A DNA stretch of 39,234 nucleotides from Nitrospirota bacterium (GTDB taxonomy: Bacteria; Nitrospirota; Thermodesulfovibrionia; Thermodesulfovibrionales; Magnetobacteriaceae): the NCBI GenBank assembly GCA_015233685.1, contig JADFXF010000014.1:1-39234 (forward strand), written 5' to 3'. Positions 5,183 to 14,783 of the stretch are shown here, in pieces. Made by a program: the position numbers and the translations under genes. Under the pieces are notes generated by a model. The model was not told the origin of the DNA, did no database searches, and saw only the letters and a list, made by a program, of their open reading frames with translations. Position 1 is the first letter of the stretch, and each line of letters begins with the position of its first letter.

Positions 5183-6319
5183 ATGCTGAAAAAGTATCTC
5201 CTTGCGCCGGGACCCACGCCGGTACCGCCTGAGGCCCTTGCCGCTATGTCCATGCCGATGATTCATCATCGCGCCCCTGACTTCATTCCAATCTTTGACG
5301 CCGCAAGGACTGGACTTAAACATCTGTACCAAACCAAAAACGATGTCCTCATCCTTTGTTCCACAGGCACGGGGGGAATGGTTGCGGCAGTCACGAATTT
5401 TTTCAATCACGGCGATAAGGCCGTCGTAGTCAACGGAGGAAAGTTCGGCGAGCGCTGGATTAAGATATGCAAGGCCTTCGGGCTTGAGGTAATAGAAATA
5501 AAGGTTGACTGGGGCTATACGCTCAACCCCGCGCGGCTTGAGGAGGTTCTCAACAAAGAACAGGGTGTGAAGGGCGTCTTTGTCCAGGCCACTGAGACCT
5601 CAACCGGCGTAAACCACGACATCAGGGCCATCGCCGGCATAGTTAATAAGCATGGCGAGGCGCTCCTGGTTGTTGACGCGATAAGTTCCCTCGTTGCCCA
5701 TGATTTAAGGACAGACCAGTGGGGCATAGACATTATGATTGGCGGGTCGCAGAAGGGGTTGATGCTCCCGCCGGGGCTGGCCTTTATAAGCGTGTCTGAA
5801 AAGGCGTGGAAGATGGCTGAGACGTCTAAAATCGAGAAGTTTTATTTTAATCTAAAGGTAGAGCGGCAGAAGCAACAGGATAATCAGACGAATTTCACCT
5901 CTGCCGTGACGTTGATAATCGGCCTTAACGAGTCCATAAAGATACTTGAAAGGGAGGGGCTGCAAAACGTGTTTAAGCGCCACGCACTATTGGCTGAAGC
6001 CACACGTCGGGCAGTTAAGGCCATAGGCTTGGGGTTATATGCGAAGGAGATGCCAAGCGACGCCGTAACGGCCATTGAGGCCCCTGAGGGCGTAGACGGC
6101 CAGAAGATATACAAGGTCCTGAGGGAAAGATACGGCGTTACCGCCGCGGGTGGTCAGGACCAGGCCAAAGGAAAGATATTCCGCATCGCCCATCTCGGCT
6201 ACTCAGACAGATTTGACATAATAACGGCCATCTCGGCCATAGAGATGACGCTAAAGACGCTTGGCGCACCAGTAACGCTTGGCAAGGGGGTCGCGGCCTG
6301 TGAAGAGATACTGCTGTAA
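5183..6319 (+). CDS. Class V aminotransferase (alanine-glyoxylate / serine-pyruvate type)
   Basis: This 378-residue PLP enzyme has the class V fold. The N-terminal LAPGPTPVPPEALAAM segment and MIHHRAPDF are typical of this group. The PLP-contacting Asp is in VVDAISSL, and the Schiff-base lysine is in GGSQKGLMLPPG near residue 195. By family it moves an amino group between a small amino acid (alanine, serine or aspartate) and a 2-oxo acid. It lies 27 bp upstream of serA, and no serC is visible, so I infer a role in serine or phosphoserine formation. CCGGAGG precedes the ATG. Alternative roles are alanine-glyoxylate or serine-glyoxylate exchange. Confidence 0.9.
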   Translation: MLKKYLLAPGPTPVPPEALAAMSMPMIHHRAPDFIPIFDAARTGLKHLYQTKNDVLILCSTGTGGMVAAVTNFFNHGDKAVVVNGGKFGERWIKICKAFGLEVIEIKVDWGYTLNPARLEEVLNKEQGVKGVFVQATETSTGVNHDIRAIAGIVNKHGEALLVVDAISSLVAHDLRTDQWGIDIMIGGSQKGLMLPPGLAFISVSEKAWKMAETSKIEKFYFNLKVERQKQQDNQTNFTSAVTLIIGLNESIKILEREGLQNVFKRHALLAEATRRAVKAIGLGLYAKEMPSDAVTAIEAPEGVDGQKIYKVLRERYGVTAAGGQDQAKGKIFRIAHLGYSDRFDIITAISAIEMTLKTLGAPVTLGKGVAACEEILL

Positions 6320-12446: not shown

Positions 12447-12471
12447 ATACTTGACAAGATTAGTATACTAT
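12447..12471 (+). promoter_or_regulatory. IscR type-I-like operator
   Basis: Left half ATACTTGACA, a 5-nt spacer AGATT and right half AGTATACTAT match the E. coli IscR type I layout (ATASYYGACT, RWWWY, AGTCRRSTAT) in spacing and most positions. It overlaps the -35 box of the operon whose first gene is an Rrf2/IscR-like regulator. I infer autorepression by the Fe-S-loaded regulator. Confidence 0.72.
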
Positions 12472-12479
12472 TATAAAAT
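12451..12479 (+). promoter_or_regulatory. Promoter of the iron-sulfur operon
   Basis: TTGACA at 12451-12456 and TAAAAT at 12474-12479 have a 17-bp spacer. The last base of the -10 box is only 6 nt from the ATG at 12486, so transcription should begin at or next to the A of the start codon. No ribosome site exists between them, which predicts a leaderless mRNA. Confidence 0.78.
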
Positions 12480-12485
12480 AAAGGT

Positions 12486-12956
12486 ATGTTAAGACTATCT
12501 ACCAGATGTCAGTACGGGGTGAGGGCGATGTATGAGATAGCCCGCGGGTATCCGGCGATGCCGGTTACGATAAAGGCGATATCTGAAAAACAGGATGTAT
12601 CGGTGGCATTTCTGGAGCAGATACTGGGAAAGCTCAGAAAGGCCGGCCTGATAAGGAGCGTAAAAGGGCCTGGGGGCGGCTATATGCTTAAGGCCGCGCC
12701 GGAGGAGATTTCCATAGAGGAGATTCTATTGATACTTGAAGGTCCGATAGCGATTACCGCGTGTGTGACTCAAGAGGATGCCTCAGGGGGATGCGTAAAG
12801 GCTGACCACTGCGTAATACAGCACCTGTGGAAGGCACTGGGACGACAGATTGAGGATTTTTTGAATACGATAACCCTCAGGGACCTCCTTGATGGGAGGC
12901 ATTTCAGCCCGATTTTGCAGCACGGGGTTGAGGAGCGGGAGGCGGTGTGCCGCTGA
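12486..12956 (+). CDS. Rrf2 family regulator, IscR-like, with Fe-S cysteines
   Basis: This 156-residue winged-helix protein starts MLRLSTRCQYGVRAM, the standard Rrf2 opening. The wing motif VKGPGGGYML is at 59-68. Three cysteines (C93, C103, C109) lie in the usual cluster-binding loop with H113 nearby, spaced C-x9-C-x5-C. This suggests a [2Fe-2S]-sensing repressor, by analogy with IscR. An IscR-type operator overlaps its promoter. It is first in an operon with a TusA-like protein, an IscS homologue and IscU, so feedback control of Fe-S assembly is the natural inference. The gene runs 10 bp into the next one. Confidence 0.92.
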   Translation: MLRLSTRCQYGVRAMYEIARGYPAMPVTIKAISEKQDVSVAFLEQILGKLRKAGLIRSVKGPGGGYMLKAAPEEISIEEILLILEGPIAITACVTQEDASGGCVKADHCVIQHLWKALGRQIEDFLNTITLRDLLDGRHFSPILQHGVEEREAVCR

Positions 12957-13213
12957 AATTCGTCGAAAACGTAAAGGCGGACGTCACAAGCGACATAGTC
13001 TATATGATGTGTCCGATGCACTTGTTGAAGCTGGAGGAGCACATGAAAGAACTCCACAAGGGTCAGGTGCTTGAGCTGCTCACCGATTATGACGGCGCGC
13101 TTGAGGACATACCGGCATGGTGTGACAAGACAGGGAATGACTTTCTGGGGATAGACGAAGAGGATGATTACTATAAAATATATATCAGAAAAGGGGGCGC
13201 AAATGAGCATTAA
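12947..13213 (+). CDS. TusA-like sulfur-carrier family protein
   Basis: This 88-residue protein has the TusA/SirA fold signature. A CPM motif (C22-P23-M24) precedes a helix LLKLEEHMKEL, followed by a VLELLTDYDGALEDIPAWCDKTG strand-helix with a second cysteine (C59). TusA proteins carry persulfide sulfur on the first of these cysteines. I chose the GTG at 12947, which has GGGAGG 4 nt upstream and overlaps the regulator gene by 10 bp. Its C-terminus overlaps the iscS-like start by 11 bp. Placement between regulator and IscS-like gene suggests it supplies or relays sulfur for cluster assembly. This is inference. Confidence 0.85.
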   Translation: MPLKFVENVKADVTSDIVYMMCPMHLLKLEEHMKELHKGQVLELLTDYDGALEDIPAWCDKTGNDFLGIDEEDDYYKIYIRKGGANEH

Positions 13214-14405
13214 ATACTTTGACCACATAGCGTCAAACCCATTGCTGCCAGAGGTGCTGGAGGCGATGATGCCGTATTTTAAGGAGCAGTTTGGCAATCC
13301 GATGAGCATGTACGACCTTGGAATGAACGCGAAACAGGCGATAGACACGGCGAGGGAACAGGTTGCCGGCCTGATAAACGCCAGGCCGTCGGAGATAATA
13401 TTCACCTCTTCGGGGGCGGAGAGCAATAACTTCGCGCTCAAAGGGATGGCCCTTGCCAGGCAAGGCGATGGCAAACACCTGATTATATCAAAGGCTGAGC
13501 ACCATTCAGTGATGAACACTGCCCGTTCGCTCGAAAAACAGGGTTTTGTTGTCACCTATGTGCCGGTAGATAAGTATGGAATGGTTGACCCTGAGGCGGT
13601 AAAAAAGTCAATAACGAAAGAGACGACGGTTATATCTATAACTCTCGCCAGCTCAGAGGTTGGCACAATTGAGCCGATAAGGGAGATAGCCGCCATTGCA
13701 GGGGCGCACAAGATAGGTTTTCACACGGACGCGGTGGCAGCGGCGGGCAACATACCCGTAGATGTAAAGGACTTGGGGGTAGATGCGTTGAGCCTGTCAG
13801 CGCACCAGTTTTATGGCCCTAAGGGTGCGGCGGCAATGTATCTGAAAACGGGGCAGCGAATCCTGCCGCTAATATACGGGGGTATTCAGGAAGGTGGACG
13901 GCGCGCGGGGACAGAAAACGTACCGGGGATTGTTGGCATGGGAAAGGCGGCGGAGCTGGCGGCGTTAAACCTCACCGGACGTATGGCCCATGTGCGGCAG
14001 TTAAGTGACAGGCTTACAGAGGGGATACTAAAGATAGAAAAAGTACACGCCACCGGCCATCCGACGCAGAGGCTTCCCGGCCTTGCGAGTTTTGTGGTTG
14101 AGTACATAGAGGGAGAGGGGATGCTGCTTCTGCTCCTTGCTAAGGGGATATATGCCGCGAGTGGTTCTGCGTGTACATCAAAGGCGCTGAAGGCATCGCC
14201 GGTATTGCTGTCAATGGGAGTGCCGACGTCAATGGCCCACGGCTCGATAGTGTTCAGCCTTGGGATAGGGAACACGAAAGAGGACGTAGAATGCTGTGTA
14301 GAGGAATTTCCACAGATAGTAAAACGATTAAGAGACATGTCGCCGTTTGCCAAAGAGGGCTGGGGAGCTATCAAGGCAGAGGACGCCAGTGAGGAGGGTG
14401 CATAA
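13203..14405 (+). CDS. IscS/NifS-like protein lacking the PLP lysine
   Basis: This 400-residue fold-type I protein aligns with cysteine desulfurases along its length. It keeps the cofactor-stacking His (AEHHSVM, 100-101), Asp176, the RAGTENV loop near 235 and the catalytic Cys324 in ASGSACTS. However, the Schiff-base Lys position reads Gln202 (SAHQFYGPKG; codon CAG at 13806-13808). The PLP-contacting Gln of the H-x-D-A-x-Q motif is Ala179. The N-terminal NNATTP motif is HIASNP. I know these losses from Archaeoglobus fulgidus IscS, reported to lack PLP and desulfurase activity. It probably serves as a scaffold partner or uses external sulfide. The start ATG follows AAAAGGGGG, and iscU begins immediately after the stop. 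Confidence 0.88.
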   Translation: MSIKYFDHIASNPLLPEVLEAMMPYFKEQFGNPMSMYDLGMNAKQAIDTAREQVAGLINARPSEIIFTSSGAESNNFALKGMALARQGDGKHLIISKAEHHSVMNTARSLEKQGFVVTYVPVDKYGMVDPEAVKKSITKETTVISITLASSEVGTIEPIREIAAIAGAHKIGFHTDAVAAAGNIPVDVKDLGVDALSLSAHQFYGPKGAAAMYLKTGQRILPLIYGGIQEGGRRAGTENVPGIVGMGKAAELAALNLTGRMAHVRQLSDRLTEGILKIEKVHATGHPTQRLPGLASFVVEYIEGEGMLLLLLAKGIYAASGSACTSKALKASPVLLSMGVPTSMAHGSIVFSLGIGNTKEDVECCVEEFPQIVKRLRDMSPFAKEGWGAIKAEDASEEGA

Positions 14406-14783
14406 ATGTATAGTGCGAAACTAATGGATCATTTTACAAATCCAAGAAACGTAGGGGAAATAGTGGATGCCGACGGCGTAGGCATGGAAGGCAATCCAAC
14501 ATGTGGCGATACGATGAAGCTGTATATAAAGGTAAAGGACGACGTGATAACAGACGTGAAGTTTCAAACCTTCGGTTGCGGGGCAGCCATAGCGGTATCG
14601 AGCATGATAACGGAAATGGCGAAGGGCAAGACACTGGCGGAGGCCCTTTCAATAACGAAGGAATCTGTGGCAGAGGCCTTAGACGGGCTGCCACCGCAGA
14701 AGATGCACTGCTCAAACCTCGGCGCGGACGCGCTTAGGAAGGCCATAGAGGACTACAGGTCAAGACAACAAGCGCAGGGTTGA
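14406..14783 (+). CDS. iscU: Iron-sulfur cluster scaffold IscU
   Basis: IscU is the platform on which [2Fe-2S] clusters are built before transfer to client proteins. The 125-residue protein has all three ligand cysteines in context: GNPTCGD (C33, with D35), FGCGAAIA (C58) and KMHCSNL (C102). It lacks the C-terminal Nfu domain of full NifU. Its ATG follows directly on the stop of the IscS-like gene, so the two are translationally coupled and probably form a complex. No hscA, hscB or fdx follows; the operon ends near a tRNA gene. Confidence 0.95.
   Translation: MYSAKLMDHFTNPRNVGEIVDADGVGMEGNPTCGDTMKLYIKVKDDVITDVKFQTFGCGAAIAVSSMITEMAKGKTLAEALSITKESVAEALDGLPPQKMHCSNLGADALRKAIEDYRSRQQAQG

Follow-up and report, generated by a model that had tools for sequence, protein, structure and literature searches.

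To our knowledge, the textbook ISC, NIF and SUF systems of Fe-S cluster assembly all begin with a PLP-dependent cysteine desulfurase. In cysteine desulfurases, a lysine forms the Schiff base with PLP and an arginine holds the carboxylate of the substrate. Proteins that depart from this scheme have been described in archaea. The IscS of Archaeoglobus fulgidus reportedly shows no desulfurase activity and supplies a cysteine as ligand of the IscU-bound cluster (PMC7585200). IscS1 of Methanosarcina acetivorans reportedly lacks the catalytic lysine, and a role similar to that of the A. fulgidus protein has been proposed for it (PMC7585200); M. acetivorans has an active IscS2 as well. Both a non-desulfurase IscS and a lysine-less IscS are, by these reports, already known; as far as we have found, the lysine-less IscS proteins of the literature come from a few archaea only, where they could pass for spare copies. 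In addition, the SMS system (SufBC) reportedly uses sulfide (PMC12192291), and in E. coli, where TusA and IscU both meet the Cys loop of IscS, it is IscS that gives sulfur to TusA (PMC2854127).

The window considered here, i.e., the whole stretch of DNA analysed, comprises 39,234 nucleotides from a Nitrospirota bacterium and holds an operon built around a degenerate, lysine-less and arginine-less IscS/NifS homologue (13203-14405), which we refer to as IscS*. The operon and its surroundings contain the following features:

12451..12479, + strand: sigma-70-like promoter, TTGACA-17-TAAAAT, just 5' of the operon (11/12 match to consensus)
12486..12956, + strand: IscR-like regulator of the Rrf2 family, opening the operon (Pfam Rrf2, 2.8e-38)
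12947..13213, + strand: TusA-like sulfur carrier with a GTG start, Cys22 (in CPM) and Cys59 (Pfam TusA, 4.8e-21)
13203..14405, + strand: IscS*, 400 aa (profiles, alignment, AlphaFold, Foldseek)
14406..14783, + strand: IscU scaffold, 125 aa, with ligands C33, D35, C58, H101 and C102 (NifU_N, 2e-50)

The genes are ordered Rrf2/IscR-like, TusA-like, IscS*, IscU; there are overlaps among the first three, and the IscS* stop codon is followed without a gap by the start of IscU. An earlier note on this DNA had described the operon as intact and its iscU as normal, and the abutting IscU, its complete ligands and the conservation of the arrangement among relatives agree with that description. The Rrf2/IscR-like protein scores under the cut-off of the IscR model (1.7e-37), and a gene of this kind lies 5' in the operon in 76 of the 76 loci whose contigs reach that far, among the best 80 IscS* loci. 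Within 12451-12486, the strong sigma-70-like sequence ends 6 bases before the Rrf2 ATG, so that the first message of the operon may be nearly leaderless; the match itself is no proof of promoter function. Elsewhere in the window, positions 5183-6319 encode a class V aminotransferase that comes nearest to BhcA (aspartate-glyoxylate aminotransferase; 350 bits, under the cut-off of that model) and is not a desulfurase. The best named relatives of the window's IscS* are a MAG protein (98% identical) and that of Ca. Magnetominusculus xianensis (91%), and the genome is of the Candidatus Magnetominusculus kind.

The active site of IscS* was read by alignment with E. coli IscS, the sequence of which was verified against PDB 1p3w. 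The codons that matter, each assigned from this alignment and Gln202 also from the translation, are:

13416..13418, + strand: Ala72, in place of the PLP-phosphate Thr76 of desulfurases (E. coli numbering)
13653..13655, + strand: Ser151, in place of Asn155 of desulfurases
13737..13739, + strand: Ala179 (GCA), in place of the PLP-contact Gln183 of desulfurases
13806..13808, + strand: Gln202 (CAG), in place of the Schiff-base Lys206 of desulfurases
14172..14174, + strand: Cys324, the mobile persulfide cysteine (E. coli C328), kept clade-wide
14250..14252, + strand: Val350 (GTG), in place of the substrate-carboxylate Arg354 of desulfurases

Five groups of the E. coli enzyme are, therefore, lost (K206 to Q202, Q183 to A179, R354 to V350, T76 to A72 and N155 to S151), and five are kept (H104 as H100, D180 as D176, H205 as H201, T243 as T237 and C328 as C324). 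The groups for PLP chemistry that we checked are all gone except ring and phosphate contacts, and the Gln202 and Ala179 substitutions that the earlier note had called are confirmed by translation and alignment. Arg and Gln are both present in 31/31 proteins of our canonical comparison set. The fold is that of the fold type I class V aminotransferases (Aminotran_5, 8.9e-78), with an AlphaFold model of pLDDT 88 and pTM 0.86 in which loop 325-329 has low pLDDT, and Foldseek places this model with NFS1, IscS and A. fulgidus IscS at TM 0.9; the expectation that the Cys324 loop and overall fold were kept has thus held up, and Cys324 itself is present in 53/53 clade rows of the alignment. The best NCBIfam model is NifS, at 476 bits against an equivalog cut-off of 530.75, and IscS* scores under the cut-offs of all desulfurase equivalogs. 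With Lys and Arg both lost, cysteine desulfurase chemistry is not to be expected, and judging from these residues IscS* is very likely without desulfurase activity.

A damaged gene or a base error could give the same appearance, and the relatives of IscS* speak directly to this. We took as relatives the best 80 IscS* loci of a contig scan, from named genomes and 65-98% identical. Lys is absent at position 202 in all 80 (79 Gln, 1 Met), and the codon there is CAG 71 times, CAA 8 times and ATG once, with no Lys codon. Codon 350 is GTN in 80/80, with all four forms in use, and position 179 is Ala in 78/80. Against its nearest four relatives, IscS* has a dN/dS of 0.064-0.085 and is under strong purifying selection. 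We found no point in favour of a sequencing error or a decaying pseudogene; we rejected both on the strength of 80 Lys-less relatives, varying synonymous codons and a dN/dS of 0.06-0.09, and we regard the chance of either as negligible.

Where the earlier note had seen an odd single protein, the wider sample reveals a phylum-scale clade. We examined 296 Nitrospirota genomes, each 90% complete or better and not counting the draft that holds the window. About 99 of them have IscS* (at least 60% identity), and it is absent from families f6, which we infer to be Thermodesulfovibrio, and f10. In a tree of 85 desulfurase-like proteins, all degenerate Nitrospirota forms fall into one clade of 53 rows (support 95/91), and a single degenerate clade is still compatible with the data when the trait columns are removed. 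Next to this clade lies the canonical protein of PDB 9wep. That entry, together with 9wew, 9wfe and 9wfy, gives the closest PDB sequences and belongs to a series of desulfurase variants altered at the positions where the clade has its losses (Ala to Ile in DHA, Thr to Ile, Gln to Pro, Arg to Val); a search for literature on the 9wep-9wfy series returned no paper.

Within the clade, Arg and Gln are lost throughout. Lys is retained in three sublineages (f18/f20, f23 and one f14 protein) and has elsewhere become Gln, Asn, Met, Arg, Ser, Thr or Pro, a distribution that needs at least five changes on the tree, A. fulgidus being one of them. Because the canonical proteins fall outside the degenerate clade, our reading of these sequences is that substrate binding went first with the arginine, a loss (Val350) that the earlier note had missed, and that Lys was then free to drift and was lost later and repeatedly. 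The Lys-keeping, Arg-less lineages would be natural intermediates. In five basal members of the clade from f14, f18 and f20 (L124, L127, L129, L131 and L135), Arg is lost and the Cys loop is changed, in most cases to ASTCTMM. Lys persists in three of them, and a TusA neighbour was seen in none.

The window's IscU scores above the NifU_clost cut-off, its ligands (three Cys, one Asp and one His) are conserved in 131-132 of 133 sequences, and an IscU gene lies no more than 200 bases 3' of IscS* in about 75 of the best 80 loci. In 16 of 17 genomes checked there is exactly one IscU, and in 15/15 of those that bear IscS*, the window genome included, this sole IscU comes directly after IscS*. As for the two genomes without IscS*, the single IscU of G113 (f10) sits within a longer NifU-like frame, and a search of G051 (f6) found none. 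No SufB/D core was found in 12/12 genomes of the window's family, one of them (G067) a single contig. More broadly, strong SufB occurs in 5 of the 99 IscS* genomes versus 21 of the 24 genomes of f6 and f10, two sister families without IscS* (Fisher p 5e-16, without correction for kinship and in effect two family-level contrasts); of the remaining IscS* genomes, 19 gave no more than a fragment or a short protein weakly similar to SufB/D, and 75 gave no match at all. Many Nitrospirota have weak SufB/D-like matches some 250-400 aa long. One IscS* genome encodes such a protein, of 319 aa, close to an ABC ATPase (L191, 1328-3661); these short proteins may represent a mini-SUF pair. The SufB gene of f6 comes after an ABC ATPase gene, which marks an SMS-type pair. 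The IscS*-IscU operon is, then, apparently the only Fe-S scaffold system of the window's family, and with no SufB/D and a single IscU it must make the clusters.

The search of the iscR-tusA-iscU context that the earlier note had suggested found the TusA-like gene beside IscS* in 80/80 of the best loci, all of the window's class, along with the IscU genes counted above. The window's protein has a TusA domain with the Cys-Pro motif, under the TusA and YedF equivalog cut-offs, and Cys22-Pro23 and Trp58-Cys59 are identical in all 124 TusA-like ORFs. Among the tree rows that could be scored, 48 of the 52 degenerate ones and 0/29 of the canonical ones have an adjacent TusA; the gene is not adjacent in four basal clade members. 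By an independent-pairs test this correlation with degeneracy counts as one event only; the linkage arose once on the tree. A better argument for a real partnership than the count of adjacencies is that the gene order has changed: the window's class has TusA 5' of IscS*, f25 and f23 have it 3' of IscU, and f34-f38 have it immediately 3' of IscS*. W45 and E49, the residues of the E. coli IscS-TusA contact, are conserved neither in IscS* nor in the canonical set. In f34, f35, f37 and f38 (L133, L134, L166-L170 and L174), a degenerate IscS with His201 mostly changed to Gln is followed directly by TusA; an IscU beside this pair and dsrA in the genome were looked for there and neither was found, and the pair may have another role or pathway.

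We consider it somewhat better than an even chance that IscS* is a non-desulfurase partner of IscU, supplied by TusA with sulfur that stems from sulfide or sulfane sulfur. IscS* would be a former cysteine desulfurase that now takes no sulfur from cysteine, with the IscS-type fold retained, presumably as a dimer. The operon's IscU would likely dock on it and be offered Cys324 on the mobile loop, and the TusA-like protein could plausibly be the deliverer, charged with sulfane sulfur from sulfide or other reduced sulfur and passing its persulfide to Cys324 or straight to IscU. Cys324 might then serve as a sulfur relay to the cluster forming on IscU or as its temporary ligand, along the lines described for A. 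fulgidus IscS. The hosts of IscS* are mostly sulfur-metabolising, sulfidogenic Nitrospirota: dsrA is present in 96 of the 99 IscS* genomes and in the window's own, and sulfide or sulfane sulfur is, therefore, probably plentiful.

The same setting, in cells that nearly all bear dsrA and probably contain sulfide, would also suit a simpler arrangement, in which free sulfide feeds IscU directly, IscS* does no more than dock IscU and provide a cysteine ligand, and the TusA-like protein has some different task, reduction or regulation for instance. A. fulgidus IscS offers a precedent, as does the use of sulfide by Methanococcus and SMS (PMC7585200, PMC12192291). However, a TusA with two invariant cysteines adjoins IscS* in three gene orders, which suggests a role in sulfur handling, and f34-f38 retain the IscS*-TusA pair without dsrA; we consider direct feeding rather unlikely.

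Cysteine could still be the source if a canonical desulfurase encoded elsewhere charged the TusA-like carrier or Cys324 in trans, with IscS* as a relay adaptor, much as E. coli IscS charges TusA (PMC2854127). The enzymes for this exist: 5/5 single-contig IscS* genomes carry at least one canonical desulfurase with Lys, Gln and Arg. We accordingly dropped the idea that IscS* is the cell's sole desulfurase, and given these relatives, complete genomes among them, the cell is probably not desulfurase-free. The earlier note had asked for a second, canonical copy, and none was found in the window's own genome, a draft that is 65% complete; five other drafts (G089, G227, G263, G215 and G225) likewise yielded none, about the number expected from assembly gaps. 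The canonical desulfurases of IscS* genomes stand alone, vary in subfamily from genome to genome and have no linkage to TusA or IscU of the IscS* sort, which argues against a dedicated donor in trans. In two of the genomes, G127 and G247, the only canonical desulfurase found is a class V cysteine desulfurase domain that follows a molybdopterin oxidoreductase in a single fused protein (L194, 722-4108, and L195, 392-3793; 1129 and 1134 aa). With candidates of this kind, we judge supply in trans distinctly unlikely.

One feature of IscS* is accounted for by neither TusA, sulfide nor a desulfurase in trans. H100, D176, H201 and T237 are identical in 28/28 rows of the window's class despite the loss of Lys, Gln, Arg, Thr and Asn, and perhaps the pocket is still used, binding PLP or a phosphate ligand non-covalently, or a metal, in a new activity or in sensing. 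Elsewhere in the clade, though, H201 has become Gln or Asn in 9/25 rows and T237 has become Ile or Ala in 9/25, and the residues may be structural; a working pocket seems to us very improbable. Returning to delivery through TusA, the flow from TusA to IscS*/IscU would be the reverse of the E. coli direction.

A broader proposal follows, which we hold tentatively and at slightly under even chances: bacterial Fe-S assembly without cysteine sulfur, by a dead IscS, IscU and a TusA-like donor, probably as the sole system in the window's family and in about 75 of the 99 IscS* genomes, with Arg lost first and Lys later and repeatedly. The evidence suggests that IscS* cells build their clusters from a sulfur source other than cysteine. 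A whole bacterial clade keeps a lysine-less IscS under strong selection in the genome's only recognisable scaffold operon, nearly always with a sulfur carrier, and the role of IscS as scaffold partner is thus separable from its role as enzyme. The source of cluster sulfur in anaerobes can now be tested directly with three small soluble proteins. We found no paper on the Nitrospirota IscS* family in the literature searched, earlier mention in a 2022 paper on MIS and SMS being possible. As far as that literature shows, the existence and extent of the bacterial clade, the loss of Arg ahead of Lys, the linkage with TusA and the apparent absence of another scaffold system are new.

Compared with the NifS/IscS enzymes (TIGR03402, TIGR02006), IscS* shares the fold, the Cys loop and the IscU operon partner and is without Lys, Gln and Arg. 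The MIS system (IscS and IscU) is likewise a minimal assembly with no carriers in the operon, but it is described with a cysteine desulfurase, whereas here there is a degenerate partner and an added TusA-like gene. SMS is also minimal, and the SMS-type SufBC pair is found instead in f6 and f10, which lack IscS*. The E. coli IscS-TusA complex (PDB 3lvj) differs in its W45/E49 contacts and in the proposed direction of flow. M. acetivorans IscS1 resembles IscS* in the loss of the catalytic Lys, by description (PMC7585200), and differs in being archaeal.

By analogy, the closest functional precedent for IscS* is A. fulgidus IscS. The A. fulgidus protein (IscS2; PDB 4eb5, 4eb7, 4hvk) is about 42-44% identical by structural alignment, at TM 0.9, and has lost the Lys (D199), the Gln (A176) and the Arg (L347, hydrophobic like Val350) while keeping the Cys loop and IscU as partner. 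The earlier note had given Asp at the Lys position, which is correct, and Ser at the Gln position, which is Ala instead; the lack of activity it gave is as reported in PMC7585200. Unlike IscS*, the archaeal protein retains Thr70 and Asn149; it has Asp where IscS* has Gln202, and Asn where IscS* has H201. In the best tree it lies outside the degenerate clade on a long branch, although one joint clade is compatible with the data (AU p = 0.4). The suggestion that the two are of the same type thus stands for the losses of Lys, Gln and Arg and for the intact IscU.
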